Shown: positions 6,600-29,366 of the stretch, in pieces | Layout: every line of letters starts with the position of its first letter | Position numbering within the stretch: position 1 is the stretch's first letter | Origin: Acidobacteriota bacterium | Lineage (GTDB): Bacteria; Acidobacteriota; B3-B38; Guanabaribacteriales; JAGGZT01 | Assembly (NCBI GenBank): GCA_021161905.1 | Contig: JAGGZT010000045.1 | Coordinates: forward strand, 1 to 45,154 | Direction of reading: 5' to 3' | Length of the DNA stretch: 45,154 nt | Program-made: the position numbers and the translations under genes | The notes under the pieces: model-generated | What the model saw: the letters and a program-made list of their open reading frames with translations, nothing else | The model's database searches: none | What the model was told of the DNA's origin: nothing

Positions 6600-6635
6600 C
6601 GACACATCCTCCTTAAAAATTTCAAGCTCCTTTTA

Positions 6636-6664
6636 ATTGTGCTCCTCCGGCGGGTTTTTGTCAA
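6636..6664 (-). promoter_or_regulatory. Sigma-70-like promoter of the TPR gene
   Basis: On the minus strand, -35 TTGACA (6664-6659), a 17-bp spacer, and -10 CACAAT (6641-6636). The -35 is perfect and the -10 weak. The start codon is about 35 bp downstream. Confidence 0.6.
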
Positions 6665-6714
6665 GGAGTAGAGAGGGAATTCCGTCTTAAAAAGGTAGGG
6701 CTGATGCTTAGAGA

Positions 6715-6743
6715 TTGAAACGGTCTCCTGTTTCAGGTATTTT
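6715..6743 (+). promoter_or_regulatory. Promoter of the MFS-S9 operon with embedded inverted repeat
   Basis: -35 TTGAAA (6715-6720), 17-bp spacer, -10 TATTTT (6738-6743). A perfect inverted repeat TGAAAC-N8-GTTTCA (6716-6721 and 6730-6735) overlaps the -35 and most of the spacer, exactly where a repressor would block polymerase. No regulator gene is adjacent, so the operator role is inference. Confidence 0.55.
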
Positions 6744-6770
6744 AAGAGGATAAATGGTTGAGGTGATACC

Positions 6771-7937
6771 TTGGAACAGCGGGCTTTTTCTATATTAGGG
6801 TTATCCATATTCACCTCGATGATTGGTATCGGTTTAATCTCACCCCTTCTCCCCATCTATGCGGTGAAGCTTGGGGCGAGTGGGTTCCTCATCGGGGTGA
6901 TCTTCTCCGGTTTCTCCATCTCCCGGGCGATATTCCTCCCCATAATCGGTTCTGCCTCCGACCGGGTTGGGAGGAAGATGTTCATCGCTCTGGGGCTCTT
7001 CATCTATAGTTTGGTGTCATTGGGTTATGTGATCGCTGAGAGTGGAGAGGCGCTCGCCTTAGTCCGTTTCCTTCAGGGTTTCGCTGCGGCGATGGTCGTT
7101 CCCATCTCTATGGCTTATGTGGGAGATATGGCAAAGAGGGGGAAGGAGGGGGCTCTTATGGGGAGGATGAACCTCTTCCTTTTTGCCGGTTTTGGCTTTG
7201 GACCATTGATGGGCGGGGTGGTAGCCCATCTCTTCGGCTTCAGGATGGATTTTTATCTGATGGGAGGGTTATCCTTCTTCGCTTTCCTCCTCGTTCTCTT
7301 CTTTCTTCCCGAACTCGGCTATCATAAAAAGGTGGAGAGGAGCCATCTTTCTTATAGGAAATTACTCATCCATCCTACGATCCAAGGGGTGATGGCATTT
7401 CGCTTCACCAACTCGATCGCCCGGGGGATCGTTGCCTCCTTTCTCCCCATCTTTGCTAGCAGAAGGGCGGGAGTGGCGGAGATGGGGATTGGTGTTCTGG
7501 TAGCGGTGAACATACTTCTTACCTCGTTTCTTCAGGATTACTTCGGGAGATTATGCGACAGGAAATCACGGAAGAAGCTCGTCTTTATCGGGGCTTCGCT
7601 TGTTTCTTTAGCTCTCTTTCTTCTCCCTTTAGCCCATACCTTCCTTACCCTGTTTCTCGTAAGCGTTGTTTTCGGTGTTGCTTCAGCGATCGCCCTTCCC
7701 GCGGCTACCGCGATGATGGTAGAGCCGGGGAGGAAGCAGGGGATGGGACAATCGATGTCCCTGTTCAATTTGGCGATGAGCCTCGGTTTGGCAAGCGGTC
7801 CCCTCATTGGAGGGAAGCTCCTTGATTCTTACAATATCTCCGCCCCCTTCCTATTTGCTGGGGTGGTGAGCATTTTAGGAACTTGGCTCTTTCTCAAACT
7901 TGTAAAGAGGAGTGTAGGGATATCTTTGGGAGGGTAA
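6771..7937 (+). CDS. MFS transporter, DHA1-like drug or solute exporter
   Basis: 388 residues with about twelve hydrophobic segments and no signal peptide. The motif A loop between TM2 and TM3 reads SASDRVGRKM (family form GxxxDRxGRR), and a motif-C-like GLASGPLIGG occurs in the second half, typical of proton-coupled DHA1 antiporters. The substrate cannot be read from sequence; multidrug or peptide/sugar export are both possible. The start is a TTG at 6771, with a GAGGTGA site 4-5 nt upstream. The nearest upstream ATG (6754) is out of frame. The gene ends 1 nt before the S9 peptidase start, so the two are translated from one mRNA. This pairing hints at export or import of peptide products, but that is inference. 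Confidence 0.87.
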   Translation: MEQRAFSILGLSIFTSMIGIGLISPLLPIYAVKLGASGFLIGVIFSGFSISRAIFLPIIGSASDRVGRKMFIALGLFIYSLVSLGYVIAESGEALALVRFLQGFAAAMVVPISMAYVGDMAKRGKEGALMGRMNLFLFAGFGFGPLMGGVVAHLFGFRMDFYLMGGLSFFAFLLVLFFLPELGYHKKVERSHLSYRKLLIHPTIQGVMAFRFTNSIARGIVASFLPIFASRRAGVAEMGIGVLVAVNILLTSFLQDYFGRLCDRKSRKKLVFIGASLVSLALFLLPLAHTFLTLFLVSVVFGVASAIALPAATAMMVEPGRKQGMGQSMSLFNLAMSLGLASGPLIGGKLLDSYNISAPFLFAGVVSILGTWLFLKLVKRSVGISLGG

Positions 7938-7938
7938 A

Positions 7939-9927
7939 ATGAAAAGGCGATTTCTTTTCTCGTTTCTTTTAGTTAGTGTTGTCTTCTTCTCCCTCTCCGG
8001 ATTATCTGAGGAGAAGAAGACGATCACCATCGAGGAGATGGTGGGGGTGAAGACGATAAGTTCCTTAGCATTTTCCCCTGAGGGTGAGAGCGCGGTCTTT
8101 GTTTTAAATCGGGTCAATTTTGCCAAGAACCACTACAACCCCGATCTCTACCTCATAAGGTTCAAGAAAAACGAGATTATAAGGTTGACCACCTCGGAGA
8201 AACGGGACAGTTCCCCCAAGTGGTCACCGGAAGGGGGGCTTATCGCCTTCCTCTCAAACAGGGTAGGAAAGAAGAATCAGATATTCCTCATCAGGGATGA
8301 TGGAGGGGAGGCCTGGCAGTTGACCAAGGAGAAGGAAGGGGTGATCAGCTTCTCCTGGCTATCTGGAGACACCATCGTCTATACCACTCGGGAGCCCCTT
8401 CCGAAGAAGGAACGGGAGAGGAGGGAAAAGGAGAAAAAGAAGGGGTTTGATGCCCGGGTGGTGGGAAAGGACAAAAGGAAGATCCTGTTTTTCAGCATCG
8501 ATGTGAAATCGGGAAAGAAGAGGAAGATAACCACCGCTGACTACGGGGTAGGGGAGATAGTCGCTTCGCCGAAGGGTGATTTGGTCGCTTATACCACTAA
8601 CTATACCGGAGATAGGGATGATTATTTGAACTACGATATCTTCCTCCTTGATGTGAAGACAGGTAAGGCGAGAAAGCTTACCGGCTTTCCTGGTCCTGAG
8701 CGGATGCCCCGTTTTTCCCCTGATGGAAGGTTCATCGCCTACCTTGCCCCGGTTGATCCCACCTTTGCCGCCTCCATCGAGAGGATCTACATAATCCCGG
8801 TAGTTGGGGGTAAAGCGAGACCGCTCACCTCCTCCTTCGATCGGACGATAAGCAGATTCCGCTGGAGTGCTGATGGCAAGTTCATCTACTTTGAAGCACC
8901 ACTTGGCACCGAGACCCATATCTTCCGCGTCCCCGCACCAGGGGGAAAGGTGGAGCGGATAACCAGGGGGAAGGCGAACTATTACGGCTTCGATATCGAT
9001 CGGATGGCTAAGAGGATGCTCCTCGTTCGTGAGGATGAGAAAAGCCTTCCCGAGGTCTTCCTCCTGCCGCTTTCCGGAAAGGGAGCAGAGAGGAAGATCA
9101 CCGCCCTGAACCTTGATCTTTCCAAGAGGAAGATAGGGAAGCAGGGGGTGATAAGCTGGCGCTCCTCGGACGGGCTTAAGATAGAAGGGGTCTTGGTCAA
9201 ACCGGTGGACTATAAGCCGGGGGTGAGATACCCCCTTATCGTCATCGTCCATGGAGGACCTCATGGTAGGGTGCGGAATGTGTTTCGGGATAGGGGAATG
9301 CAGATATTTGCCGCTTCCGGTTATGCGGTTTTGGCTCCGAATTTCAGGGGGAGCTCGGGATATGGAAATAGGTTCGGCACCATCAACCGGGGCGATCTCG
9401 GCGGAGGCGATTTCCGCGACATTATGGCTGGAGTGGATAAGGTGATTGAGCTGGGGATCGCCGATCCTGATAGATTGGGGATAATGGGAGGAAGCTATGG
9501 CGGTTATATGACCAACTGGGCGATAACCCAGACCAAAAGGTTCAAAGCAGCGGTATCGATGTACGGCATCTTCAACTTCATCACCGATTTCTCCAATTCG
9601 AACATCCCCACCTTCGAGAAGGAGTATTTAGGTTACTATTACTGGGAGAAACTAGATCCTTATCTAAGGCGCTCTCCCTTCTATTATGTGAGGAACATTG
9701 AGACCCCGGTGCTCATCCTCCACGGGGACGCGGACGCTAATACCTTCATCAGCAACTCACTTGAGATGTACACCGCCCTGAAGAAGCTCAAGAAAAGGTT
9801 TGAATTTGTGAGATATCCCCGGGAGGGACATGGTATCTCCCGGGAGCCCGCTCATCGGATAGATGTATTAAGGCGTGCTCTTTCCTGGTTCGATAATTAC
9901 CTTGAAAGGGAGAAAGTTGGCAATTAG
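7939..9927 (+). CDS. Secreted S9 prolyl-oligopeptidase-family peptidase
   Basis: 662 residues with a signal peptide (1-24). An N-terminal beta-propeller (about 30-400) contains several WD40/TolB-like repeats (for example SPKWSPEGGLIAFLS and RMPRFSPDGRFIAYL). An alpha/beta hydrolase domain follows (about 410-660). The catalytic triad is visible: S519 in GGSYGGYM, D599 in HGDADANTF, and H631 in REGHGIS. The GGSYGGY motif fits dipeptidyl- or acylaminoacyl-peptidases of family S9. It should cleave short peptides in the periplasm or outside the cell. The start has a GGGAGGG site. Its 3' end overlaps the stop of the convergent corrinoid-activation gene by 4 bp. Confidence 0.93.
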   Translation: MKRRFLFSFLLVSVVFFSLSGLSEEKKTITIEEMVGVKTISSLAFSPEGESAVFVLNRVNFAKNHYNPDLYLIRFKKNEIIRLTTSEKRDSSPKWSPEGGLIAFLSNRVGKKNQIFLIRDDGGEAWQLTKEKEGVISFSWLSGDTIVYTTREPLPKKERERREKEKKKGFDARVVGKDKRKILFFSIDVKSGKKRKITTADYGVGEIVASPKGDLVAYTTNYTGDRDDYLNYDIFLLDVKTGKARKLTGFPGPERMPRFSPDGRFIAYLAPVDPTFAASIERIYIIPVVGGKARPLTSSFDRTISRFRWSADGKFIYFEAPLGTETHIFRVPAPGGKVERITRGKANYYGFDIDRMAKRMLLVREDEKSLPEVFLLPLSGKGAERKITALNLDLSKRKIGKQGVISWRSSDGLKIEGVLVKPVDYKPGVRYPLIVIVHGGPHGRVRNVFRDRGMQIFAASGYAVLAPNFRGSSGYGNRFGTINRGDLGGGDFRDIMAGVDKVIELGIADPDRLGIMGGSYGGYMTNWAITQTKRFKAAVSMYGIFNFITDFSNSNIPTFEKEYLGYYYWEKLDPYLRRSPFYYVRNIETPVLILHGDADANTFISNSLEMYTALKKLKKRFEFVRYPREGHGISREPAHRIDVLRRALSWFDNYLEREKVGN

Positions 9928-10577
9928 CCTTCCTTCTGATGAAAGGGACAATGTTTTAGGTGACAAGTATCGCAGAGGGAGGGTTTTGTAGGATAGGGGT
10001 AGGGTTTCTTCATCAATCGTACCGCAAAAGAGAGCGACTTCCGGGGAGCCATTATCAGCCCTGGGGTCAGCATTACTTCGATTTTCTCCACCGGGAGAAA
10101 GGAGAAGATGATCCGCTGTTGTTCAAGCTCCCATTTACCATAGCCTGGGCTTATCCTCGGGTAAGGGTGGAGGTGAGCAATATCCTCTCGATGGCAGATA
10201 TGGGCGTTGGTGTAGTCAGCTGTCCGCTCCAATGCTTCGGAACCGAGAGCATCAAGAATGAGGGTTTCGAGCATCCTACCCTTCTCCGAAAGCTTGGTTA
10301 TCTCCTCATCGAGTTTCTCCCCTACGGTGCAGATGGCGAGGCCAATTACCTCTGTTTCCCGGAAGAGGGTATGTTTTGGGTACTCCTTTTTAGGTATGAG
10401 GCGATAGACCGCCCGGGGGAAGATTAGCTCCGAAGCTCTGGCTACCACCTCTTCCACCAATTTAAGCACCCGTGGGGGTGGTGTCTTGGCTCTCCGATAG
10501 CCGAGGAGGTGGAGGATGTCCCTCTCTTTTATCTCCATAGGGAAATCAGCTAAAATAACGGGTGAGGTGTCCATCAT
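9924..10577 (-). CDS. Stand-alone MetH-type B12 activation-domain protein
   Basis: 217 residues resembling the C-terminal reactivation domain of cobalamin-dependent methionine synthase (AdoMet-binding), as in short stand-alone homologues of thermophiles and anaerobes. The SPGYGKWELEQQ segment at about residues 143-154 matches the RxSPGY core, and the later MLTPGLIMAPRKSLSF matches the (L/M)xPxKSxS signature. The C-terminus adds a cysteine cluster CDTCHLKHCPF (about 202-212), not part of E. coli MetH, which could bind iron-sulfur or another metal. The expected role is reductive remethylation of an oxidised corrinoid on a partner. No corrinoid protein or methyltransferase is in this window. No good ribosome site precedes the ATG at 10577, so the start is uncertain. 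Confidence 0.8.
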   Translation of the reverse strand: MMDTSPVILADFPMEIKERDILHLLGYRRAKTPPPRVLKLVEEVVARASELIFPRAVYRLIPKKEYPKHTLFRETEVIGLAICTVGEKLDEEITKLSEKGRMLETLILDALGSEALERTADYTNAHICHREDIAHLHPYPRISPGYGKWELEQQRIIFSFLPVEKIEVMLTPGLIMAPRKSLSFAVRLMKKPYPYPTKPSLCDTCHLKHCPFHQKEG

Positions 10578-10782
10578 ATTTGGTAATCAGTTGTTCTTCT
10601 TCAGGTAAATACCTCCCTCTGAAGGAGGTTCCATTATCTTTATATCGACATACCGAGGTAAAAATTTATAGTTTAGACCAAAAAACAGCAAAAGCGAGCT
10701 TTCTTGCTTGGATACCGTACTTCAGGGGGAAGATATCCTTGATTTTTTTTTTAAAATATCTCTCTTTTATATTCAACAGAGC

Positions 10783-12138
10783 TCATCTGGTAAGCCAGGA
10801 GGTGTCCCTGAAGGTGATTATCGCATAAGGAACGGTCCAGATAAGGACAAATACATGGAGATAGGGATAAAGCATCCCGAAGACAAAGTCAGTGTTTTTC
10901 TCGAACTTTATGTAAAGAAGGATATAGATGGAACCCATTATGCTTATCATAGCGAGAAAGCGAAGGATAAGGACGGGGTCGATAAAGAAATATCTCATCG
11001 AGTAGAAGAGAACATAGAACTGGAAGGGGATGAGGGTTACCGAAAGGACGAAATCGAATATAGGTAATATCCGGTTTCTGGGGCGATAGCGCTTGAACAT
11101 AAAGGTGGCGAAAATAATGCTCTCCCTAATGAAGCTCTTGTGCCATCTGGTTAACATCTTGGCGAGCTTCTTCAGGTTGTTGGGCACTGTGGTATAGACC
11201 ACCGCGGTCTTCTGATAAACGGTGTCGTACCCTGAGCGAAGGACGAAGTTGGTGAGGGAACGATCATCCCCATAGGTGCACCGTTGGTTTAAGAATATCT
11301 GGTTCACCCAAGGCTCGAGTATCTTATCGATCACCGTCTTCCGGTAGGCGGAGAGCACGCCGGAACAGCAGAAGACCGTTCTAAAGGCAGAGCGGGAGGC
11401 ACGGAAGAATTCAAAAGCCAAGGTATAGCGGACGGCGAGCATCCTGGTTAAGAGATTTTCCGTTTTGTTATATACCTTTACCTTGGCGGTGGCAGCGCCC
11501 ACCCTGGGATCATCGAAGGGGGCGACAATCGCCCTCAAGGCGTCCTTCTCCATCACGCTGTCGGAGTCCATAGTGACGATGATATCGCCCTTAGCGATCC
11601 TCATTCCCGCAGCAAGTGCCTCCCTCTTTCCTTTGTTCTCTTTGAACCTTATCGTCTTCACCAGATCGGGATAGCGTTTTCTCGCCCGGTCGATGTAATA
11701 CCAGGTGTCGTCCTTGGAGGCATCATCGATGCAGATTATCTCCTTTAGCTCCTTGGGGTAATCGGCGGCGACAGCGGAGAGGATCGATTTCTCCACCATC
11801 TCCCCTTCGTTGTAAGCGGGGATTACCACCGTCACTCGGGGAAGTCTCTTTTTCTCCTTTATGGGGAAGGAACGGTAACGGAAGCAGAGGAAGGCGCGGT
11901 AAGGGAGATGTATCGCCACCATACAGGCGTAGAGGAATAGGGGAAGGGTGAAATAGCGTGGGACATAGCGAAGGTGATACCAATAGTCCGCCTTCTGAAA
12001 TGAGCCAGTTACCACCGCAAGCAGGATAATGAGACTAATGAACATAAAAATAGAGAGCTTGAGGAGGTTCTCGTAGCTCCCCTCCTTTACCAGCTCTAAC
12101 TTCTTTACCGTCGGTTCAGTGGTTAATCGATGATTCAT
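10783..12138 (-). CDS. Membrane family-2 glycosyltransferase (NodC/hyaluronan-synthase-like)
   Basis: 451 residues: two N-terminal membrane segments (about 24-46 and 62-86), a GT2 catalytic domain (about 98-330), and three or four C-terminal membrane segments. Motifs in order are VVIPAYNEGE, the nucleotide-binding Asp in CIDDASKDD, the metal-binding TMDSDS, an acceptor-site TYGDD, and LTRWHKS, which matches the Q/RxxRW motif of processive synthases. This suggests synthesis and perhaps export of a beta-linked polysaccharide, but the polymer cannot be named. It has its own TTGACA promoter just upstream. There is no clear terminator downstream; the 205-bp gap to the next gene has one weak GGAGGT inverted repeat and no gene. 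Confidence 0.88.
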   Translation of the reverse strand: MNHRLTTEPTVKKLELVKEGSYENLLKLSIFMFISLIILLAVVTGSFQKADYWYHLRYVPRYFTLPLFLYACMVAIHLPYRAFLCFRYRSFPIKEKKRLPRVTVVIPAYNEGEMVEKSILSAVAADYPKELKEIICIDDASKDDTWYYIDRARKRYPDLVKTIRFKENKGKREALAAGMRIAKGDIIVTMDSDSVMEKDALRAIVAPFDDPRVGAATAKVKVYNKTENLLTRMLAVRYTLAFEFFRASRSAFRTVFCCSGVLSAYRKTVIDKILEPWVNQIFLNQRCTYGDDRSLTNFVLRSGYDTVYQKTAVVYTTVPNNLKKLAKMLTRWHKSFIRESIIFATFMFKRYRPRNRILPIFDFVLSVTLIPFQFYVLFYSMRYFFIDPVLILRFLAMISIMGSIYILLYIKFEKNTDFVFGMLYPYLHVFVLIWTVPYAIITFRDTSWLTR

Positions 12139-12208
12139 TGCCCCCTTCTTCCTTTATATTCTTAAGGGGAAAATTAAGTGAGTTAAGGATTATCCTCTCA
12201 TATGAACC

Positions 12209-12237
12209 CTTATATATAAGGAAACCCCCCTTGTCAA
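12209..12237 (-). promoter_or_regulatory. Promoter of the glycosyltransferase gene
   Basis: Minus strand: -35 TTGACA (12237-12232), 17-bp spacer, -10 TATAAG (12214-12209). About 70 bp separate it from the start codon at 12138. Confidence 0.7.
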
Positions 12238-12263
12238 GGAATAAACAGATTTTTCCCTCATCT

Positions 12264-12785
12264 CTATCCTTCCACCTTATGGACGATCTCCTCGAGTCTT
12301 CTCCTTCTTGTAGGATGTGGCTCCTCCGCAGGATAACCCAGGGGAAGAATGATTATCGGCCGCTCCGTCCTTGGCAGGGAAAGGGCTTTTCCCACCTCCT
12401 CTTCATTGAAGGCACCGATCCATACGGTGGCGAGTCCCAAGGCGACAGCAGCGAGCTGAGCATAGCTGGCAGCAATGGTGGCGTCCTGAAGGCTGTAGAG
12501 TTCCGCTCCCCGCGAGCCGTACCGCGCTGCAGAACGTCTTCTATTGGCGGTGAAGACGAGAACCACCGGGGCAGAGGCGATGAAAAGTTGTCCGTAGGCA
12601 GCATCAACGAGCTTTTCCTTCAACGCCTCGTCCCTAATTAGATAGATTTCGTAGGCTTGGAGGTTGCCCGCTGAAGGGGCAGCGTTTGCCGTCTCAAGGA
12701 CCTTTGTCAGCTTATCCTCCTCCACCCCCTTGGCGAGAAACCTTCGCACAGAACATCTCTTAGCCACTACCTCGAAGAATTCCAT
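12264..12785 (-). CDS. Nitroreductase-family FMN oxidoreductase
   Basis: 173 residues of the short nitroreductase fold. The N-terminal FMN-phosphate signature RCSVRRF is at 10-16, NAAPSAGNLQAYE at about 34-46, and the C-terminal half has LGLATVWIGAFNEEEV and IILPLGYPAEE, typical of FMN-dependent NAD(P)H oxidoreductases of this family. It acts in the cytoplasm; the substrate is unknown (quinone, flavin or nitro compound reduction are all possible). An in-frame ATG lies eight codons upstream, but a GGGGGGAG site directly precedes the ATG at 12785, which starts MEFFEVVAKR as homologues do. A single gene, with its own promoter divergent from the histidine phosphatase gene. Confidence 0.88.
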   Translation of the reverse strand: MEFFEVVAKRCSVRRFLAKGVEEDKLTKVLETANAAPSAGNLQAYEIYLIRDEALKEKLVDAAYGQLFIASAPVVLVFTANRRRSAARYGSRGAELYSLQDATIAASYAQLAAVALGLATVWIGAFNEEEVGKALSLPRTERPIIILPLGYPAEEPHPTRRRRLEEIVHKVEG

Positions 12786-12820
12786 CTCTCCCCCCTTAAG
12801 GAAAAACAATAGACCTTCTC

Positions 12821-12850
12821 TTTTTACCCAATATATACTCTTCCTGTCAA
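12821..12850 (-). promoter_or_regulatory. Candidate promoter of the nitroreductase gene
   Basis: Minus strand: perfect -35 TTGACA (12850-12845), 18-bp spacer, -10 TAAAAA (12826-12821, four of six consensus bases). Back to back with the rightward promoter at 12863. Confidence 0.45.
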
Positions 12851-12862
12851 GATGGATAGTGG

Positions 12863-12892
12863 TTGTTTTTCCCCTTCGTTTTGTCGTAGAAT
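12863..12892 (+). promoter_or_regulatory. Candidate promoter of the histidine phosphatase gene
   Basis: -35 TTGTTT (12863-12868), 18-bp spacer, -10 TAGAAT (12887-12892). The start codon is about 37 bp downstream. Confidence 0.5.
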
Positions 12893-12928
12893 TAAACTTC
12901 GATAAGTTATGAAGGAGGTTGGTTGGTA

Positions 12929-13561
12929 ATGACGGTTACCATTTTCTTCCTTGTCCGCCACGGAGAGACCGAATTCAATCGACAGAAGAGGTTTATGGGT
13001 TGGATAGATGAACCCATAAATGAGGTTGGAAGGAAGCAGGTTGCTCTCCTCGGGAAACGGCTGGCGAATGAGGAGATAGATTTCTTTGCCAGCAGTCCCT
13101 TAAGACGAACAAAGGAGACGGTGGAGGCGATACTGGGACATCATCCTGGAGGAAGACTCGAGCTTTATCCCGAGCTCGGAGAGATAAGGCTTGGTCCTTG
13201 GGAGGGACTTACTTGGAAAGAGGTGGGAGAGAGATATCCCAAGGAGAAGGAGCTTTGGGAGACGGAGCCGGCTAAGGTTCATCTTCCCGGGCTTGAGACG
13301 GTGGATATGGTACGGGACCGGGTGGGGAGGAAGATCGATGAACTCCTCTCCACTCATAGAGGAGAGAGGATCCTCATCGCCACCCATGATATGGTGGTCC
13401 GACTCGCCATCTTCCATCTCTTGGAGATCGATAACAGACATTATCGGTCATTTCCGGTAATGAACGCCTCTTTATCCATCGTTCGGGTGAGGGAGAGGTT
13501 GAGAGAGCTCATCTTATTCAACGATACCTCCCACTTAGCTCCTTTAGGGAAAAATTTTTAG
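12929..13561 (+). CDS. Histidine phosphatase (phosphoglycerate-mutase-like)
   Basis: 210 residues of the histidine phosphatase superfamily. The phosphorylated His is in LVRHGETEFN (RHGE at 10-13). An SSPLRRTKETVE segment (about 56-67) and a second catalytic His in ATHDMVVR complete the pattern. Candidates for its reaction include cofactor-dependent phosphoglycerate mutase-like activity, alpha-ribazole phosphatase or broad phosphatase activity; sequence alone does not decide. An in-frame TTG at 12923 is only 3-4 nt from the AAGGAGGT site, whereas the ATG at 12929 is 9 nt away, so the ATG is preferred. Monocistronic; a new promoter begins immediately after the stop codon. Confidence 0.9.
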   Translation: MTVTIFFLVRHGETEFNRQKRFMGWIDEPINEVGRKQVALLGKRLANEEIDFFASSPLRRTKETVEAILGHHPGGRLELYPELGEIRLGPWEGLTWKEVGERYPKEKELWETEPAKVHLPGLETVDMVRDRVGRKIDELLSTHRGERILIATHDMVVRLAIFHLLEIDNRHYRSFPVMNASLSIVRVRERLRELILFNDTSHLAPLGKNF

Positions 13562-13918: not shown

Positions 13919-14490
13919 ATAACTTTTCAGAGACCCAATGCAAGCTTGGCTACGGGAACAAAGAACCGCATTCCTGATGTAGCTCCCATATCCGGTCTTT
14001 GTCCCGTTTGTTTGGGATGGCTGCCCCGGTGGCTGCGAGGTGTGAACCTCTTCGCTCCGGGGACGAGAGGTGCTCTATCCTCAGCCGTATTCTAAAGTGA
14101 CCGCTGGTGCCACCAAGGATTATCCGGTAGATTACTCTCATCTCAATATCCAAGGGAATCGATAAGGGGATCAGGGAGGGCAAGTTTCCTCCTTCCGTCT
14201 CCAAGTACGGCAACAACATCGAGCAGATCTATGTCAAGGCTGCTGAGCTCAAGGCGAAGTACGGGAAGGACTTCGAGCGGCTACCCGTTGGTGCCATTGG
14301 AATGTATACCTACGCCGATCGGCTGGCTACCGGTCTCAGGCAGTTGATGGCTGGTGCTCGGAAGTTCACCTTGGATAGCATAGGGCGTGATGATCTCATC
14401 GCCCTTACCAAGGAGGCTGCCGAGGTCACTGGTATCCCCTATGTGAGGGAACACGATTTGGAAGAGGTGGACAAGATCCTCGGGGTGTAA
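13919..14490 (+). pseudogene. Decayed FMN-dependent glutamate synthase (large-subunit-like) gene
   Basis: Three frame blocks in order. Block 1 (from 13919) reads IPDVAPISGLCPVC. Block 2, one frame on, reads DGCPGGCEV, then a stop, then LRGREVLYPQPYSKVTAGAT and DYPVDYSHLNIQG to about 14150. Block 3, in the third frame, reads GKFPPSVSKYGNNIEQIY through FERLPVGAIGMYTY, RLATGLRQLMAGARKF and AAEVTGIPYV to the stop at 14490. Blocks 1-2 match the N-terminus and block 3 the C-terminus of FMN-binding glutamate synthase-family proteins as I remember them. The FMN-barrel core between them, several hundred residues, is missing, so a large internal deletion joins the ends near 14150. The likely start codon is now ATA (13919), placed correctly after a GAGGTGG site. 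Not expressed as a working enzyme. Confidence 0.72.
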
Positions 14491-14642: not shown

Positions 14643-14782
14643 ATAAGGTTCCGTTTTCTACTTTTTGCCCAATCATCAGGGTGAGCGATGGGCTTTCGAA
14701 AGAAGAGGAGGTTCTATCTCTGTGTTTTTCAGCTGAGGCACTTAAGGAGATGGTTTTTGATCCTGAAGGGGAGGAGAGTTCA

Positions 14783-15517
14783 ATGGAGAAAAAGGTAGTC
14801 GTTTTTGCCCCTACTTGGGGAATAGGGAAGAGGGAAAAGTTCCCCTCATCGGTGGAGCTTTGGCTTGAGGATACAATGGCAGAGCTTCCTCCTGCCTCTC
14901 TTCTTGAGCCATTTCTCAGGGGAGTAGATGGTATCTTTTTGGGGGATGTGTTGTCAACTGAAGACCCTGAAGGGAAGAGAAGCGAAGGCTTGGCTGATCT
15001 TATCTCTGCAGTTATCTCTTGGTTGGGGATATCTCCCCTTAGGTTCTTCTTCTGTCAAGTTTCTCGTAAGGGTGGGGAGAAGGTCGATCGGTTCGTTATG
15101 GATTTTTTGGAGAGGATTGAACCTCTCCCTTCGCTTTTTGAGGAGATTTCTGAGGAGAGGCTCAAGAGGAAGATCGAGGCGGCGAAAAAAGGGCTTTCTG
15201 CACGGAAGCTCCCCTTCCTTTTAGGAAAACGGGATGAGCTTTCAGAAAAGGGCAATCTCTTTGGTGAGCGATTCACCCAACTCGAGCTCAAACGGATGTT
15301 TTATAGCGTCATCTCTGATGAGCTTACCGCTTTCGAGCTTCTCTCCTTATTGGCGGAGAGGGCGTATTCTGTTCCCGAACTGGCTAAGCTCACCGCTTTA
15401 CCCCGCCCCCAGGTTTTGGGGCAGCTCTCTAATCTAAGAAGGCTAAACCAGGTTGATATAGTTGAGATAGAGGGTACTACCCCGAAGTGGGGTAGAAAAG
15501 GGATTAACCGGAAGTAG
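14783..15517 (+). CDS. MvhD-like protein without iron-sulfur cysteines, with C-terminal winged helix
   Basis: 244 residues from the ATG. Residues about 3-125 (KKVVVFAPTWGIGK ... FLRGVDGIFLGDVLSTEDPE) follow the layout of MvhD/FlpD, the [2Fe-2S] subunit linking hydrogenase or other donors to HdrA. The cysteine positions of that family (FxCNWC, CxGRVD, GCxxGDC) carry other residues here, so no cluster is expected. Residues about 175-235 (FELLSLLAERAYSVPELAKL ... PQVLGQLSNLRRLN) look like an ArsR/MarR-type winged helix. An in-frame GTG at 14681 would add 34 residues but lacks a ribosome site, while GGGGAGGAG precedes the ATG. It sits 8 bp before the flavoprotein genes. It may be a structural adaptor or a redox-linked regulator; neither is proven. 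Confidence 0.68.
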   Translation: MEKKVVVFAPTWGIGKREKFPSSVELWLEDTMAELPPASLLEPFLRGVDGIFLGDVLSTEDPEGKRSEGLADLISAVISWLGISPLRFFFCQVSRKGGEKVDRFVMDFLERIEPLPSLFEEISEERLKRKIEAAKKGLSARKLPFLLGKRDELSEKGNLFGERFTQLELKRMFYSVISDELTAFELLSLLAERAYSVPELAKLTALPRPQVLGQLSNLRRLNQVDIVEIEGTTPKWGRKGINRK

Positions 15518-15525
15518 GAGGAAAG

Positions 15526-17214
15526 ATGGAGAAAAAGGGTGTATTAGTCGTCGGCGGAGGCATCGCCGGGCTGGAGGCAGCGCTCGATTTAGCTGAGCTC
15601 GGCGTGGATGTCTATCTACTTGAGCGGGAGGAGAGGCTTGGGGGAAGGGGAGAAAAGCTTTCCCTTGTCGCTCCCTCCGAGCTTCCTGCCCGTCTTCTCC
15701 TTGCGAGGAGGGTGGCTAAGGCTGTTCTTAACCCCCGGATTCATATCATCTCTAATGGGTCTATAGAGGAGGTGAAGAAGGAGGAGGATGGGTTTATAAT
15801 CTCCCTTTCCAAGGAGCCCACCTTGGTTAATGACGATTGTATCTCCTGTGGCGCTTGTGCTCGGGTTTGTCCCATCAAGCCTTACTCCCAGTTTGAGGAA
15901 GGGCTTCTCCAGCGCTCCGCAGTGGATAGGGAAGACAGAGCAAGCTACCCCCCCTATTTCGGGATCGTAAGGGAGACCCCGCCCTGTTCCCTTGCCTGTC
16001 CTGCGGGGATCGATGTGAGGCGTTATGTGAGTCTCATCGCTGAAGGGAAGTTCGCCGAGGCGATCGCTGTGGTTAGGGAGAGGAACCCCCTTCCCTCGGT
16101 TTGCGGCAGGGTCTGTCCTCATCCCTGTGAAGCCGCTTGCAATCGAGGTTTGGTCGATGAGCCGATAGCGATAGAAGCCCTGAAGAGGTTCGTCGCCGAC
16201 TACGAGATAGCGTTGAGAGAAAGGGGGGAATTTACCTACCCCAAGCCAAAGGAAAAGAACGGGTTTAAGGTGGCGGTGGTTGGATCTGGTCCTGCCGGTC
16301 TTACCTGTGCCCATGACCTCGCCCTTATGGGCTATCAGGTGGTTATCTTTGAGAAGGAGAAGGTGGCTGGTGGTATGATGTATCTCGGCATCCCTGAATT
16401 TCGGCTCCCCCGTGATGTCCTTGCCCACGATATCGAATATATCGAGAAGCTGGGGGTTGAGATAAGGCTCAATACCCCCATCGGTCCTGATCTCAGCCTG
16501 GATGATCTTTTCGAGCAGGGTTTCTCCGCTATATTCATCGCCACCGGTGCCTATGAGGGATATAAACTTGGAGTGCCTGGCGAGGAGGAGTATTCGGGAG
16601 TGGTCGATTGCATCAAGTTCCTCCGTGAGGTGAATTTGGGGAGAAAGGAAAAGCCCGGGGATAAGGTGGTCGTTATCGGGGGCGGAAATTCAGCGATCGA
16701 TGCCGCTAGGGTGGCGCTTAGGCTTGGTGCTTCCGAGGTTACCATCCTCTACCGTCGTTCCCGGAAGGAGATGCCTGCTAACCCCTGGGAGGTGATTGAG
16801 GCGGAGCGGGAGGGTGTTCGTATCCATTTTCTCGCTGCACCGACCAGGATACTGGGGAGAGATGGGAAGGTTACTGGGATGGAGTGTGTGAGGATGGAGT
16901 TGGGCAAACTTGACGCCAGCGGAAGAAGGCGTCCCGTCCCCATCCCGGGTTCTGAATTCACCATTTCCTGCGATTTCATCATCCCGGCTATCTCCCAACA
17001 GCCGGATGTCTCCTTTCTCGGGGAGGATCACGGGCTTGAGATATCCCGTTGGAACTCCATCGAGGTCGACCCGGGGACGATGGCTACTGCACGTCCAGGT
17101 GTATTCGCTGGAGGCGATGTGGTTACTGGACCAAGAACGGTAGTCGAGGCGATAGCCGCAGGCCATAAGGCGGCTAAGGGCATCGACCGTTATATAAAGG
17201 AGGGCGTGAGATGA
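15526..17214 (+). CDS. HdrA N-half fused to a GltD/NfnB-type NAD(P)H flavoprotein
   Basis: 562 residues, cytoplasmic. Residues 6-45 form an HdrA-type FAD Rossmann motif (VLVVGGGIAGLEAA, then EREERLGG). A [4Fe-4S] ferredoxin motif CISCGACARVCP (C105, 108, 111, 115) follows and runs into the HdrA-like QFEEGLLQRSAV and PPYFGI. From about 150 it becomes a full GltD/NfnB module: two cysteine groups (C154, C158; C193, C197, C201, C205), a second FAD motif VAVVGSGPAGLTCA (about 249), and an NAD(P)H Rossmann motif VVVIGGGNSAIDAAR (about 384). It ends with GVFAGGDVVTGPRTVVEAI. The second half of the HdrA FAD domain is absent here and appears in the next gene, whose ATG overlaps this stop by 4 bp. The layout recalls HdrL-type proteins. 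Predicted role: electron transfer between NAD(P)H and ferredoxin or Hdr partners. An AGGAGG site precedes the ATG. Confidence 0.85.
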   Translation: MEKKGVLVVGGGIAGLEAALDLAELGVDVYLLEREERLGGRGEKLSLVAPSELPARLLLARRVAKAVLNPRIHIISNGSIEEVKKEEDGFIISLSKEPTLVNDDCISCGACARVCPIKPYSQFEEGLLQRSAVDREDRASYPPYFGIVRETPPCSLACPAGIDVRRYVSLIAEGKFAEAIAVVRERNPLPSVCGRVCPHPCEAACNRGLVDEPIAIEALKRFVADYEIALRERGEFTYPKPKEKNGFKVAVVGSGPAGLTCAHDLALMGYQVVIFEKEKVAGGMMYLGIPEFRLPRDVLAHDIEYIEKLGVEIRLNTPIGPDLSLDDLFEQGFSAIFIATGAYEGYKLGVPGEEEYSGVVDCIKFLREVNLGRKEKPGDKVVVIGGGNSAIDAARVALRLGASEVTILYRRSRKEMPANPWEVIEAEREGVRIHFLAAPTRILGRDGKVTGMECVRMELGKLDASGRRRPVPIPGSEFTISCDFIIPAISQQPDVSFLGEDHGLEISRWNSIEVDPGTMATARPGVFAGGDVVTGPRTVVEAIAAGHKAAKGIDRYIKEGVR

Positions 17215-19598
17215 AGAGGCGGAAGTTCATCCCGGATTATAAAGATATTCCCAAAAAGAGAGAAGCTATTCCTCACCTCTCAATTGCCGAACGAAGAGGT
17301 AATTTTAACGAGGTTGAGCTTACCTTTCCTGAGGAGCGGGCGGTATCCGAAGCCTCTCGCTGCCTTACCTGCAGGAAGTGCATTGGTTGTGGTTTATGCG
17401 CCACTGTCTGTCCTGTTTCCGCCATAGATTATAACCGGGAAAAGAAGAGGATAACACTCGCAGTTGAGGCGGTGGTGCTTGCCCCTGGCGCTTCTGAATT
17501 CGATGCGGGAAGGAAAAAGGAATTTGGCTACCGGGAGTTTGCCAATGTTTTTACCTCGTTGGAGGTGGAGCGTATGCTCGATCCCGACGGTCCTTACGGA
17601 GGGTTGTTCCTCCGAGCCTCAGATGGAGAGATTCCGGCTAAGGTGGGGATCGTCCTCTGCGTTGGTTCGCGCGAAGAGGGTATTGGTGCCCCCTATTGCT
17701 CCACCATATGTTGTAATAGTGCTTTGAAGCAAGCACGGACAATAATAAGGAGATACCCCAAAGCTGAGATAACTATCTTCCACCGGGATATAAGGACCAA
17801 TGGCTTTGGTTCCGAGGCCTATCTCCGTTCTCTTGAATCCCTCAGTAAGGTAGATTTTATATACGGGAGGATCACCTCCCTTGAGGAGGATGAGAGGAAT
17901 CAGGATATCATCATTCGCTATGAGGATGGGGAGGGTAGAAAAGAACGAGCTCGATTCTCGGCGGTGGTGCTTGCGACTGGGCTCCGTGCCCCAGATGATG
18001 CGAGGAAGCTCGCCTCTTTATTCGGCATCAAGCTAAATCGGTATCGTTTTGCCGAGACTACCTCTTTCTCCCCGATCGAGACCGATAACCCCCGGGTAGT
18101 GGTGGCAGGGACATTCACCGGTCCCAAAGGGGTGGAAGAAGCGGTGCGGGAAGGAACAGCGGCAGCTGCGGTGGTTGCTCCTCGCCTTGCTCGAGAGGAG
18201 ATACCTTCAACCAAAGCCACGGGGGAGGAAACGGTTGGAGAAGGAGGGGTGGGCGTCTTTATATGCGAGCATTCCCTCCGTCATCTTAAACTCGATCCCA
18301 GGGTGATTTCGGGGAGGATCAGGTCTGTTTCCCAGGTCTCCTATGTGAGGAGTTTCCCCTTCCTTGGAGATTTCCTCTCCACTAAGGAGATAAAGAAGGT
18401 GGTGTCTACTAAGGGGTTCTCCCGGTTGATCCTTATCACCGTCCTTCCTGAAGCTGTATTCGAGAGGAGGCATTTCGCCAAGGGGGTAGGATTTTTGGAA
18501 GAGGCGATCTTTTTCGTCAACCCCTCCAAATTGAGGGACGAAGAGGAGATAGTAGCTAAAGTGGAGGAGAGCCTTCACCTTGATCCTCGAAAGGAAAGGA
18601 AGATGCCCAGTTCCTCCTCCGCATTGGTTGTCGGAGGTGGGGTGGCAGGGCTTGAGGCTGCCCTGACCCTCTCTTCATTAGGACATCCGGTGCATCTGGT
18701 TGCTGAGGCTGAAGAGTTAGGAGGTCTCTTTAAGGATAGTTACTTCACCCTTTATGAAGAAGATGTACAGGCTGCTGTCTCAAAGCTAATATCCGCTGTT
18801 GAGGAGGACCCAAATATAAAGATCTATCTGAGATCAGAGGTGGCGGATGTATCAAAAAGGGAGGGGGATTTCCTCGTCAAACTCTCTCAAAGTGACGAAC
18901 CCCTTACCGTAGGCGTCATCCTCGTAGCTACCGAGGGGAAGGTCTGTACCCCAACCGTCTGTGGTTATGGAAAAGACCCTCGGGTGATCACCCAATGGGA
19001 GCTTGAGGAAAAGCTTGCTAAGGGGACCTTTTCCGCTCGCCGGGTGGCGATGATCCAGTGCATCCGCGGTAGCGAGGATTATACTCTTTCCTACTGTAGC
19101 AGGCTTTGTTGCCCCTCGGCAGTAAAGAATGCGCTTAAGATTAAGGAGCTCTCTCCAGATACCGATGTATCGATAGTCCATTCTGGTCTTCGCCTCTTTG
19201 GCTTTGCCGAGGATTATCTCGAGAAGGCGAAGGAAAAGGGGGTGCGTTTCTTCCGGGTTTCGAAATTCCCTACCTTTGACTCCGCCGAGGTGCTTAAGCT
19301 CAGGTTTAAGACGATCGCTGGTGAGGAGTTGAATCTCTCCCCGGATGTGATAGTTCTTGCCACCGGAGTCCTTCCCAGCCCAAGGAATGTGGAGCTTGCC
19401 CACATCCTCGGACTAACGACCACCAAGGAGGGTTTCATCAAACCTGAAGCGCCACTTTTCCCCTCTCTTTCCGCTTCCTCCGGTGTTTTCTTTGCTGGTT
19501 TTGCCGAGGCTCCGATGGAGGTGCGAGATGCGGTGGTCTCAGGACGGGCAGCGGGGATGAAGGCTGGGTTATTCCTTAGGGGAAAAGATAAACCCTAA
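17211..19598 (+). CDS. HdrA C-half plus a second, iron-sulfur-poor HdrA-like flavoprotein
   Basis: 795 residues. The start (about 20-50) resembles a GltD C-terminal tail. A cysteine-rich ferredoxin region CLTCRKCIGCGLCATVCP follows (C51, 54, 57, 60, 63, 67), then the second half of an HdrA FAD domain: VVLAPGASEFD, VGIVLCVGSRE, PYCSTICCNSALKQA, a FHRDIRTNGFG segment, and VVVAGTFTGPKGVEEAV. After about residue 340 a second HdrA copy starts with VGVFICEHS and a fresh FAD motif VVGGGVAGLEAA (about 470). It continues through AMIQCIRGSEDY and YCSRLCCPSAVKNAL to a C-terminal SSGVFFAGFAEAPMEVRDAV. This second copy lacks the CxxCxxCxxxCP insert and the C-terminal ferredoxin pairs of true HdrA. It is translationally coupled to the upstream gene. 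Together the two proteins would form one flavin-rich electron-bifurcation-like complex; the partner subunits HdrB/C are not in the window. Confidence 0.83.
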   Translation: MKRRKFIPDYKDIPKKREAIPHLSIAERRGNFNEVELTFPEERAVSEASRCLTCRKCIGCGLCATVCPVSAIDYNREKKRITLAVEAVVLAPGASEFDAGRKKEFGYREFANVFTSLEVERMLDPDGPYGGLFLRASDGEIPAKVGIVLCVGSREEGIGAPYCSTICCNSALKQARTIIRRYPKAEITIFHRDIRTNGFGSEAYLRSLESLSKVDFIYGRITSLEEDERNQDIIIRYEDGEGRKERARFSAVVLATGLRAPDDARKLASLFGIKLNRYRFAETTSFSPIETDNPRVVVAGTFTGPKGVEEAVREGTAAAAVVAPRLAREEIPSTKATGEETVGEGGVGVFICEHSLRHLKLDPRVISGRIRSVSQVSYVRSFPFLGDFLSTKEIKKVVSTKGFSRLILITVLPEAVFERRHFAKGVGFLEEAIFFVNPSKLRDEEEIVAKVEESLHLDPRKERKMPSSSSALVVGGGVAGLEAALTLSSLGHPVHLVAEAEELGGLFKDSYFTLYEEDVQAAVSKLISAVEEDPNIKIYLRSEVADVSKREGDFLVKLSQSDEPLTVGVILVATEGKVCTPTVCGYGKDPRVITQWELEEKLAKGTFSARRVAMIQCIRGSEDYTLSYCSRLCCPSAVKNALKIKELSPDTDVSIVHSGLRLFGFAEDYLEKAKEKGVRFFRVSKFPTFDSAEVLKLRFKTIAGEELNLSPDVIVLATGVLPSPRNVELAHILGLTTTKEGFIKPEAPLFPSLSASSGVFFAGFAEAPMEVRDAVVSGRAAGMKAGLFLRGKDKP

Positions 19599-19721: not shown

Positions 19722-21038
19722 ATGAAAATTAAGCCTGTAAAGTATACCGTTGAAGAGGCGTTAGCTTATCATGCTAATAACTTCAGCGGTGGCGGAAAAA
19801 TAGAGGTTATAAGTAAGGTTCCGGCACGGAACGCCTATGATCTCACCCTTGCTTATACCCCTGGCGTTGCTGAACCATGCAAGGTCATCGAAAAGGATCC
19901 GGAGAAGGTCCACGACTACACCGCCAGGGACAATTTGGTGGCGGTGTTGACCGATGGAACTGCTATTCTCGGTCTGGGTAATATTGGTCCCCAGGCGGGG
20001 ATGCCGGTTATGGAAGGTAAGGCGGTTCTCTTCAAGATGCTCGCCGGTGTCGATGCCTTCCCCCTTTGTATCGGCACCACCGATACCGAGGAGATCATCA
20101 AGTTCGCAAAGTGGATCGAGCCCACCTTCGGTGGGATCAATCTGGAGGATATCTCTGCTCCTCGGTGTTTTGATATCCTTAGCAGGTTGAGAAAAGAGCT
20201 CGATGTCCCCGTATTCCATGATGATCAGCAGGGGACGGCGGTAGTGGTTCTCGCCGGTCTTATCAACGCCTTGAAGATCGTGGGAAAGAAACTTGAGGAT
20301 ATTAAAGTCGCTGTCTCCGGTGCCGGAGCTTCCGGTATTTATGTGACCAAGCTGATTATGGGCGCTGGCGTACGGGATGCGGTTCTCGTTGATACCAAGG
20401 GGATCATCTACGAGGGAAGAAAGGAGAATATGAACCCCTACAAGGAGGAGATCGCCCGTACCACCAATAGGGAGAAGAAAAAAGGCGGTATTGCTGAGGC
20501 CCTTGAGGGTGCCGATGTGTTCCTCGGCCTTTCGGTTGCCGGGCTGGTGACCAAGGATATGGTGAAGCGGATGGAGAAGGATCCGATCGTGTTCGCGATG
20601 GCTAACCCGGTACCCGAGATCATGCCTGAGGAGGCGCTCGAGGCAGGTGCCAAGGTTATCGCTACCGGCAGATCCGACTATCCCAACCAGATCAACAATG
20701 TTCTCGGCTTCCCTGGTATCTTCCGCGGCGCCCTCGACGCGAAGGCTACCGATGTGAACGAAGAGATGCTCTATGCTGCCGCCCATGCCCTTGCTAATCT
20801 GATTCCCGATGACGAAGTCCGTGAAGACTACATCATCACCCACCCGGTCGATCCCAAGGTGATGCCCGCTGAGGCAGCAGCGGTTGCCGAGGCAGCGGTG
20901 AAGACTGGTGTTGCCCGGAAGAAGGTCACCTATCAGGAGGTTTACGAGCACACCAAGAAGCTGGTCGAGGTGAACCGCGAGCGTTACGATATGATGGAGG
21001 AGATCTGGAAGAAGCACGGAATACTCCCGAAGAAATAA
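19722..21038 (+). CDS. NAD(P)-dependent malic enzyme
   Basis: 438 residues of the short bacterial malic enzyme, converting malate to pyruvate and CO2 with NAD(P)H formation. Motifs: LAYTPGVAEPC (about 44), the catalytic-lysine segment PVMEGKAVLFK (about 91-101), the metal-binding FHDDQQGTAVVV (about 166), and the nucleotide-binding VSGAGASGIY (about 194). The C-terminal phosphotransacetylase domain of MaeB is absent, and the length matches the short form. The start has an AAGGAGAAGG site. It lies between two terminators and so is probably monocistronic; I could not identify its promoter with confidence in the 60 bp available. It would supply pyruvate and reducing power next to the NAD(P)H-linked flavoproteins, but there is no sign of shared control. 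A long antisense open frame is a shadow. Confidence 0.95.
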   Translation: MKIKPVKYTVEEALAYHANNFSGGGKIEVISKVPARNAYDLTLAYTPGVAEPCKVIEKDPEKVHDYTARDNLVAVLTDGTAILGLGNIGPQAGMPVMEGKAVLFKMLAGVDAFPLCIGTTDTEEIIKFAKWIEPTFGGINLEDISAPRCFDILSRLRKELDVPVFHDDQQGTAVVVLAGLINALKIVGKKLEDIKVAVSGAGASGIYVTKLIMGAGVRDAVLVDTKGIIYEGRKENMNPYKEEIARTTNREKKKGGIAEALEGADVFLGLSVAGLVTKDMVKRMEKDPIVFAMANPVPEIMPEEALEAGAKVIATGRSDYPNQINNVLGFPGIFRGALDAKATDVNEEMLYAAAHALANLIPDDEVREDYIITHPVDPKVMPAEAAAVAEAAVKTGVARKKVTYQEVYEHTKKLVEVNRERYDMMEEIWKKHGILPKK

Positions 21039-27206: not shown

Positions 27207-27230
27207 TGATATTTGGAGGAGGAAGTTAAG

Positions 27231-29366
27231 ATGAGGCGTTTTTGGGTCTTCGTTGGTGCGTTATTAATCATTATCTCGTTTGTGCTTTCCCCTGTTTGTT
27301 TGGCATCTCCCGCTGTTTCGGGTGAGAAGGAGGCGATTAAGAAACTTCCCAAGAAGCACCGGAAGTGGCTGGAAGAGGTGACCTATATAATCACCAAGAA
27401 GGAGAGGGAAGCGTTTCTCTCCCTGAAGAGTGATAAGATGCGAGACAAGTTCATCGAGTTATTCTGGAAGATGCGAGATCCCACTCCGGGGACGAAGAAA
27501 AACGAGTTCAAGGAGGAGTTTTACAAGAGATTTGAGTACGCCAATAAGTTCTTGGGGCGGGAGACCTATAAGCCGGGCTGGAAGACCGATAGGGGGAGGA
27601 TATATATCCTTCTTGGTCCCCCGCGGGACATCCAGCGGTTTGATAATACCCAGTACACCTACCCCATTGAGCTTTGGCACTACGATTCCGGTGGGCTTCC
27701 TGGGTTACCTGCATTTTTCCACCTTATCTTCTTCAAGCGTAACGGGGTGGGGGAGTTTGTCCTCTACGACCCTATACGCGATGGAGTTGAGGAGCTATTG
27801 CTCCCATCGATGACCTTAGACCGGGGACTGGGGGCGGCTTATCAGCTTCTTCGTCAAGTGAGTCCGGAGCTCGCCCGAGCTGCCCTTTCTCTCGATGATG
27901 GGGAGCCGGTTGATTTCTACTCCCTTCATCCGAGCTTAGCATCGACCGTACTTTTGGGTAAGATAGCTACCCTGCCCGAGAGGTTGATCCATTCGGATTA
28001 TGTGGACAATTTTTTGAAAGGAATACCAACCGTTCGAGTAGAGTACAGCTATCGTCTTATCACCCTTTCCTCCTCTCTGAACACCTTCCGGGATGAGTTG
28101 GGGAATTACTTCTTACACTTCGCTTTAGGAGTTGAGCCGAAGAATGTATCGCTTGGCAAATATAAAGATAAGTATTATGGCGCTTTTGAGATCGTTGGTG
28201 ATATTTCCGATCTCAATGGCAAGATAATAGCGAAGATAAACGATGAGGTAGAGCTCAATCTTAGTGAGGAGGAGTTTAAGAAGGTGAGAAGCTCCTCCTT
28301 TGTATTTGAGGGGAAGAAGGTAATTCTTCCCGGAAGGTACAGGGTTAAGCTGTATCTCAGGAACAATGTCTCCCGGGAATACGGTGTGGTTGAAGGTACT
28401 ATAGATGTACCTGAGCCATCGTCCGACCTGGTACAGGTCTCAACCCCTCTTCTTGCCTTCAAGGTATTAAAGCCAAACCGGCGGTATTCCGATAAGCGGA
28501 AGCCATTTGAGATGGGTAACTTCCTGTTTCTTGCCAATCCCATTAGCCTTTTCCCTCAGGGAAGTAAGCTCTATCTTTTCTATCAGGTGTATCTGCCCCG
28601 TGAGGGGAGCATCTCTCCTTATTCCCTTTCCGCCCGTTACGATATCCTGCAGCAGAAGAAGCTCATCTCCTCTGAGGAGGAGTTTCTGGGTAGCTACTAT
28701 TCGGGTAAGGAGAAGGTGTTCAATATTGTAAAGCCGATACCCCTTTCTTTTCCTCCAGGTGAGTACCAATTGAAGGTGGTCGTTATCTCCGGGGGGAAGG
28801 AGATTGCTGAGACGAAGCCAATATCGTTCACCATATCCCCTTATCCCAAGCTACCTGCTCCCTATATCTATGCCAAGGATTTTCCCCCGGGGTTCTCCTC
28901 CTTATACAATTACCAGAGGGGTAAAGAGTACTTAGCCCTTGGTAAAAGAGAAGAGGCAGAGCGAGAGTTCCGCGAAGCGCTGAAGAAAAACGGCGATTTC
29001 GTGGCGGCGAGAAAGGAGCTTGTTCAGCTTTACCTCGATGGCAAGAAATATAAAGAGGTGATAGACCTCCTCGAGCCAGTGGTGCTCAAGTCGCCGAATG
29101 ATTATGAGATACTGATGGCGCTTGGCCTATCCTATAGAGGCCTCGGAGAATACTATGATGCCATCCGCTATTACGAACGGGCGCGGATGGTAAAGGGCAG
29201 GGATGCTCCGGTTGGTTTGCTTAATCAATTAGGAGAGGTGTATCAAAAATCGGGAAACCTTAAAAAGGCAAAGGAGATATTTGAACTTTCCCTGAAGAAG
29301 AAAGCTAATCAACCACTGATTACAAAGAAGCTGGAAGAGATAAAGAAGAAACTAAATAGCGGTTAG
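27231..29366 (+). CDS. Exported GWxTD-domain protein with C-terminal TPRs
   Basis: 711 residues. Signal peptide (about 1-26), then the GWxTD domain (about 45-185) with FIELFWKMRDPTPGT and the name-giving PGWKTDRGRIYILLGPP (GWKTD at about 116-120). Beta-rich domains follow (about 200-560), then two or three TPR units (about 565-690). GWxTD proteins are common in Acidobacteriota, Bacteroidota and relatives and have no settled function. An in-frame TTG at 27213 lies inside the GGAGGAGGAAG ribosome site, so the ATG at 27231 is the start. The gene converges on the sulfatase-fold genes with only 4 bp between stops. All three neighbouring products are exported or membrane-bound TPR proteins, which hints at a shared envelope complex (inference). 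Confidence 0.9.
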   Translation: MRRFWVFVGALLIIISFVLSPVCLASPAVSGEKEAIKKLPKKHRKWLEEVTYIITKKEREAFLSLKSDKMRDKFIELFWKMRDPTPGTKKNEFKEEFYKRFEYANKFLGRETYKPGWKTDRGRIYILLGPPRDIQRFDNTQYTYPIELWHYDSGGLPGLPAFFHLIFFKRNGVGEFVLYDPIRDGVEELLLPSMTLDRGLGAAYQLLRQVSPELARAALSLDDGEPVDFYSLHPSLASTVLLGKIATLPERLIHSDYVDNFLKGIPTVRVEYSYRLITLSSSLNTFRDELGNYFLHFALGVEPKNVSLGKYKDKYYGAFEIVGDISDLNGKIIAKINDEVELNLSEEEFKKVRSSSFVFEGKKVILPGRYRVKLYLRNNVSREYGVVEGTIDVPEPSSDLVQVSTPLLAFKVLKPNRRYSDKRKPFEMGNFLFLANPISLFPQGSKLYLFYQVYLPREGSISPYSLSARYDILQQKKLISSEEEFLGSYYSGKEKVFNIVKPIPLSFPPGEYQLKVVVISGGKEIAETKPISFTISPYPKLPAPYIYAKDFPPGFSSLYNYQRGKEYLALGKREEAEREFREALKKNGDFVAARKELVQLYLDGKKYKEVIDLLEPVVLKSPNDYEILMALGLSYRGLGEYYDAIRYYERARMVKGRDAPVGLLNQLGEVYQKSGNLKKAKEIFELSLKKKANQPLITKKLEEIKKKLNSG

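Follow-up and report, generated by a model that had tools for sequence, protein, structure and literature searches.

An HdrA flavin domain apparently divided over two genes by an inserted GltD/NfnB module

HdrA is a central flavin-bifurcating protein of anaerobes, and forms with an inserted GltD module were recently proposed to link HdrA directly to NAD(P)H. A stretch of 45,154 nucleotides from an Acidobacteriota bacterium (contig JAGGZT010000045.1; hereafter the window) carries two overlapping genes, here called A and B, which raise the question of whether a single HdrA flavin domain can be divided over two polypeptides. The initial annotation read A as the first half of an HdrA FAD domain followed by a GltD/NfnB module, and B, overlapping A by 4 bp, as a GltD tail with cysteines from which HdrA resumes.

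Domain layout of the two chains

This layout was borne out by profile matches for both genes (Table 1). In A, residues 3-147 matched positions 139-285 of the NCBIfam profile HdrA2, and residues 147-558 matched positions 43-446 of the GltD-like PRK12771. In B, residues 15-84 matched the C-terminal tail of PRK12771 and residues 49-354 matched HdrA2 positions 282-587 (1.8e-117 over the whole B protein). The HdrA2 positions end at 285 in A and restart at 282 in B, so that HdrA picks up where it was interrupted, and the E-values of the two chains exclude chance matches. When PDB sequences were compared, A 4-133 corresponded to 144-274 of 9sfi_A and B 54-328 to 290-567. For 6tjr, an HdrA-like flavoprotein without the ferredoxin insertion, A 4-95 corresponded to 2-95 and B 87-328 to 104-341. 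The segments of A and B are therefore complementary on solved HdrA-type structures and cover one HdrA flavin domain once, with no overlap. A complete thioredoxin-reductase-like FAD domain of the split HdrA was obtained only by combining the A and B sequences. The split domain, originally read from motif order, is thus well supported.

The GltD module is placed between the two cysteine motifs of the HdrA ferredoxin insertion, motif 1 (C105, C108, C111 and C115) being in A and motif 2 in B. The chain break is not at the HdrA/GltD border; it is inside the inserted module, where a linker leads up to the cysteine tail. The module in A has the Fer4_20 domain and two dinucleotide-binding domains that define NfnB/GltD (PF14691, PF07992, PRK12771), and its Fe-S ligands are C154, C158, C197, C201 and C205. 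The closest solved chains were NfnABC (9bov/9n5u), StnC (8oh5) and NfnL (4ylf/5jca). In the structure comparison these NfnB/NfnL, NfnABC and StnC proteins were homologous to the module, with 42-50% identity, but they have no HdrA halves and have other partners.

The second half of the split domain, in B, carries E120 (equivalent to E356), K173 (equivalent to K409), the FAD-proximal cluster cysteines C150, C163, C167 and C168, and the C-terminal segment GPKGVEEAV. Two further parts of B were not mentioned in the initial annotation. One is a degenerate HdrA N-terminal domain, in which C352 is the sole survivor of the canonical cysteine set. The other is a further HdrA FAD domain, the second of B, which is complete, has no ferredoxin insertion and retains CX11CX3CC and K639. 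B ends after this domain, and no Pfam match to a C-terminal ferredoxin domain was found in the window B or in the orthologous B of genome G001. AF2 models of the single chains A and B, made from alignments of 5 and 7 sequences (pLDDT 54 and 66), gave weak support only. The B model matched 6tjr_A over 341 columns (TMt 0.83), in a segment that, judged by its length, would be the second FAD domain.

Table 1. Features of the A/B locus, in positions of the window.
Feature	Position	Strand	Evidence
MvhD/FlpD-like protein, 278 aa, extended at the C-terminus, every cluster cysteine lost	14681..15517	+	Alignment with the MvhD-like gene that relatives have at the corresponding position
Gene A, HdrA first half and GltD/NfnB module, 562 aa	15526..17214	+	NCBIfam, Pfam, PDB sequence matches
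HdrA first half in A: GGGIAG ADP-binding part of FAD domain (aa 3-95) and ferredoxin motif 1	15532..15966	+	HdrA2, 1.4e-30; 9sfi_A 144-274, 5.6e-24
GltD/NfnB module in A, with its own FAD and NAD(P)H sites	15967..17199	+	PRK12771, 1.4e-147
A/B stop/start overlap, ATGA, 4 nt, frames differ	17211..17214	+	
Gene B, 795 aa	17211..19598	+	NCBIfam, Pfam, PDB sequence matches
GltD C-terminal tail in B merged with HdrA ferredoxin motif 2 (C51, C54, C57, C60, C63, C67)	17253..17462	+	PRK12771 472-541; cysteine table
Split HdrA FAD domain, second half, in B	17469..18194	+	6tjr_A 104-341 (2.3e-37), 9sfi_A/5odc_A
Degenerate HdrA N-terminal Fe-S domain in B (about aa 345-460)	18243..18590	+	Comparison with the 1475-aa single chain, in which this domain is intact
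Second, complete HdrA-type FAD domain in B (about aa 469-790)	18615..19580	+	Pyr_redox_2 472-763
Malic enzyme, downstream neighbour	19722..21038	+	PF00390/PF03949, PRK12861

Distribution and history of the gene pair

The gene pair is conserved in the window's class and in a second group. The split locus was present in all four genomes of the class, with the B gene of G002 cut off at a contig end and intact B frames of 795-806 aa. Identity between the two families of the class was 60-61% for A and 40-41% for B. The second group, the order of G398, was reached via contigs titled Desulfobacterales. At least 18 of its genomes had a full-length A, in a frame of 544-585 aa, and in the loci fetched a short B of 245-296 aa was usually found directly after A.

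Single-chain homologues with the same domain order were also found, in line with the earlier remark that HdrL-type fusions of HdrA and NfnB occur as single chains. They were 1475 aa long in G001, G002 and G003 of the window's class, and 908-1519 aa long beyond it. In the rest of the window's phylum (396 genomes, with the best three candidates per genome scored), full-length A-like matches among those listed were in frames of at least 845 aa.

For A, dN/dS between G001 and G003 was 0.06-0.08. It was 0.23 for the first part of B, 0.14 for its second FAD domain and 0.44 for the degenerate domain. Purifying selection in these relatives is strong on A, moderate on the two FAD parts of B and weaker on the degenerate domain.

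In a tree of the whole A region (a quick search, with a midpoint root for drawing only), a single branch (SH-aLRT 96) separated the 22 split sequences from all others, and the split sequences adjoined the 1475-aa single chains of the window's class. When only the GltD columns were used, the single chain of the class grouped with its own split forms (96). Rooting of the fission with HdrA-less GltD proteins was dropped because this outgroup was scattered and did not form one clade. This GltD-only grouping and the scattered outgroup leave room for either direction and for more than one fission; one fission would be the simplest, though not a proven, reading.

Flavin-site residues and neighbouring genes

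The window's class retains the K409 and E356 equivalents, the four FAD-cluster cysteines, and the G-x-G-x-x-G, GG and PK segments. In the Desulfobacterales-type split forms, B has lost K409 and the FAD cluster as well as the C-terminal FAD segment, and many of these forms also have an altered GGGxxG/GG in A. This joint alteration of A and B matches the prediction of one shared site. The complete Cys197 motif of HdrA (A54/A57) is absent from all split forms: the window has P/L there, and one of the two cysteines persists in G001 and G003. Ferredoxin motif 1 was present in 16 of 18 split forms, motif 2 in 17 of 18, and the GltD cysteines in all.

K409 and E356 have been proposed as markers of bifurcating HdrA, and a GXGXXA nucleotide-binding pattern has been associated with NADP (PMC12054007). 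The GGGNSA motif of A fits this pattern, so that NADPH is slightly favoured over NADH as the probable substrate of A. The NAD(P)H-linked bifurcation suggested in the initial annotation found partial support. The K409/E356 equivalents and the FAD-proximal cluster were kept, but the Cys197 motif, the C-terminal ferredoxin domain, the cluster cysteines of MvhD and an HdrB/HdrC partner were missing. No HdrB candidate beyond a GlcF-like CCG protein was found, hence no evident high-potential acceptor, and we therefore treat bifurcation by A and B as a plausible hypothesis.

The MvhD-like protein of the window had no Pfam or NCBIfam match. Its ortholog in G397 matched FlpD (PF02662, 3.5e-31) and had a weakly HTH-like C-terminus. 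The MvhD-like genes of relatives carry cysteine/selenocysteine cluster motifs, for example CNWU and GGU..ECH, none of which occurs in the window gene. In loci L023 (~6740-7540), L030 (~4150-4940) and L100 (~15670-16434), the MvhD-like protein has a long extension at its C-terminus and, at positions of cluster ligands, one or two TGA codons in frame. The in-frame TGA in the genes of relatives is likely to encode selenocysteine, and these genes escaped ordinary ORF calling. With a cut-off of 47 bits, tRNA-Sec was clearest in G002 (71.9) and was also above the cut-off in G001 (47.9); the window genome (45.2) and G003 were below it. Absence of tRNA-Sec from the window genome is likely rather than proven.

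In G001 and the second group, the genes upstream of A and B are hdrCB-like (CCG), an HdrA with an in-frame TGA, an HdrA with N- and C-terminal domains, and the MvhD-like gene; G397 and G398 additionally have HdrC/HdrB-type genes downstream of the split genes. The window locus is reduced to the MvhD-like gene, A and B, and looks like a stripped-down version of this operon, without hdrCB, hdrA(Sec) and hdrA. In the window genome, no other HdrA, no FlpD match and no HdrB candidate were found, except for one CCG ORF that was GlcF-like by its sequence. A malic-enzyme-like gene was recognized by sequence inspection downstream of B in G001 and G003 as well, and is thus conserved in both families of the class.

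Several other observations were made in these genomes. A widespread operon in the order of G398 (L065, L067, L099-L116) comprises hdrCB-like genes, HdrA pieces with in-frame TGA, HdrA, MvhD-extension, A and a short B; it suggests a GltD-driven docking module from which the HdrA flavin site appears to have been lost. Locus L038 of G037 has a 2399-aa frame (5892-13091), with TGA read through, that contains HdrA/GltD modules. Just upstream of the window operon, an open, coding-looking frame of 110 aa (14158-14490, +) has a stop but no obvious start. It had no Pfam, NCBIfam or convincing PDB match and is possibly a gene remnant. A GWxTD domain protein (TIGR04514, 2.6e-34) was found at 27213-29366 of the window. 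By inspection, L042 (G000:C50, 1613-4887) has a glycyl radical enzyme-like protein of 790 aa with an activating-enzyme-like neighbour, near a GlcF-like CCG protein, which would fit a fermentative anaerobe.

A probable two-subunit HdrA and its alternatives

A 'type III' HdrA, in which the GltD/NfnB module is inserted in the ferredoxin domain, has probably undergone fission here to give A and B as its two subunits, and we infer that these associate physically. The shared FAD pocket would then take its ADP-binding part from A, which would also bring ferredoxin motif 1. Ferredoxin motif 2 would come from B, together with the residues K173/E120 at the isoalloxazine ring, the FAD-proximal cluster and the FAD segment of the C-terminal part. 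NAD(P)H, for which the neighbouring malic enzyme is a plausible source, would be oxidized at the GltD FAD of A. The electrons could then travel along the GltD clusters, and along ferredoxin clusters to which both chains contribute, until they reach the shared HdrA FAD; their next stop would be ferredoxin or the second, complete HdrA FAD in B.

The most serious alternative is decay, with the HdrA part surviving as a relic. A would then be mainly an NAD(P)H dehydrogenase of the NfnB/GltD type, the HdrA halves would serve as an FAD-less docking and Fe-S relay piece, and B would be in the course of disappearing now that HdrBC, the MvhD cluster and the other HdrAs have gone. The missing upstream genes, HdrB and MvhD cysteines in the window would agree with this, as would the degenerate N-terminal domain of B with its faster evolution in relatives, the residue losses in the Desulfobacterales-type forms, and the identity of only 41% for B against 60-61% for A between the window and G001. 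However, every key FAD residue of the split domain, and every cluster ligand, is present in the window, G001 and G003, both ORFs are intact with B frames of 795-806 aa, and the two FAD parts of B are under purifying selection in relatives. We therefore regard decay as rather unlikely. That A and B are independent enzymes, with the first 150 residues of A folding by themselves, is very unlikely. Complete and independent FAD domains do exist in both chains, namely the GltD domain of A and the second HdrA domain of B. The split domain itself is incomplete in each chain: A 1-95 matches only the N-terminal part of 6tjr, and B 87-328 only the remainder. Among the homologues met, none has A 1-150 as a stand-alone fold, and the two genes adjoin in the class genomes as well as at the loci fetched from the second group.

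The break could also result from an assembly or sequencing error in a single ORF, or one protein could be made by stop readthrough or frameshifting. Several relatives do have B in the frame of A after one stop. However, the stops at the junction are real, being mostly TAA and otherwise TAG or TGA, followed by a start codon (ATG after TAA). In the window, A and B overlap but are read in different frames, the genomes examined share the linker in which the break falls, and nothing unusual was seen in the RNA structure at the window junction (z = 0.54). Selenocysteine readthrough joining A and B was rejected since the stops were mostly TAA, and a programmed frameshift at the window junction since there was no structural signal. 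We give error or recoding almost no weight. Conservation of the cut pair in two or more groups of anaerobic bacteria marks it as a real two-chain variant, not an error.

The proposed fissioned type III HdrA can be compared with known systems. In methane/alkane-metabolising archaea, nine sequences of type III HdrA containing GltD have been described, in classes A9, A9-TRX-C and A10 (PMC12054007). Like these, A and B have GltD in the HdrA ferredoxin domain (A 105-115, A 147-558, B 51-67) and the K409/E356 equivalents; A9-TRX-C, by its name, would have an extra thioredoxin-reductase-type domain and so resemble A plus B. Unlike these single polypeptides, A and B are bacterial, encoded by two genes, and without the Cys197 motif or C-terminal ferredoxin domain. 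HdrA9-11 of ANME-1 has an NfnB-like insertion of about 500 aa in the ferredoxin domain, with NADPH suggested as the carrier and, in the parts of that report consulted, no break between two genes as in A/B (PMC9012536). HdrL of Desulfobacterium autotrophicum, an HdrA/glutamate synthase fusion, forms single large polypeptides and shares with the locus the joining of HdrA to an NADH-binding GltD-type module, an adjacent mvhD and selenocysteine use (PMC2702500). Methanogen HdrA (5odc, 9sfi, 8rvu) has the same FAD domain, ferredoxin insertion, FAD-proximal cluster and flavin Lys/Glu, but in A/B the domain is interrupted and split, without intact N- and C-terminal Fe-S domains and without HdrBC. In contrast to the HdrABC-MvhD complex, the window genome has no HdrB/HdrC partner and its MvhD-like neighbour is cysteine-less.

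No description of a chain break inside the HdrA flavin domain was found in the literature searched, which was mostly outside subscription journals. The GltD/NfnB insertion in HdrA is already known from single chains, and the two-chain version appears to be new. It is doubtful, though conceivable, that the break is functional, the NAD(P)H-oxidizing chain being detachable and the flavin assembled or gated by subunit association; in the window's class, NAD(P)H would then drive a minimal enzyme that does without HdrBC and may bifurcate. The two-chain lineages, one keeping and one losing the shared flavin site, provide a natural comparison of the need for the HdrA flavin. A and B would form a two-subunit system that is smaller than HdrABC-MvhAGD and testable by co-expression.
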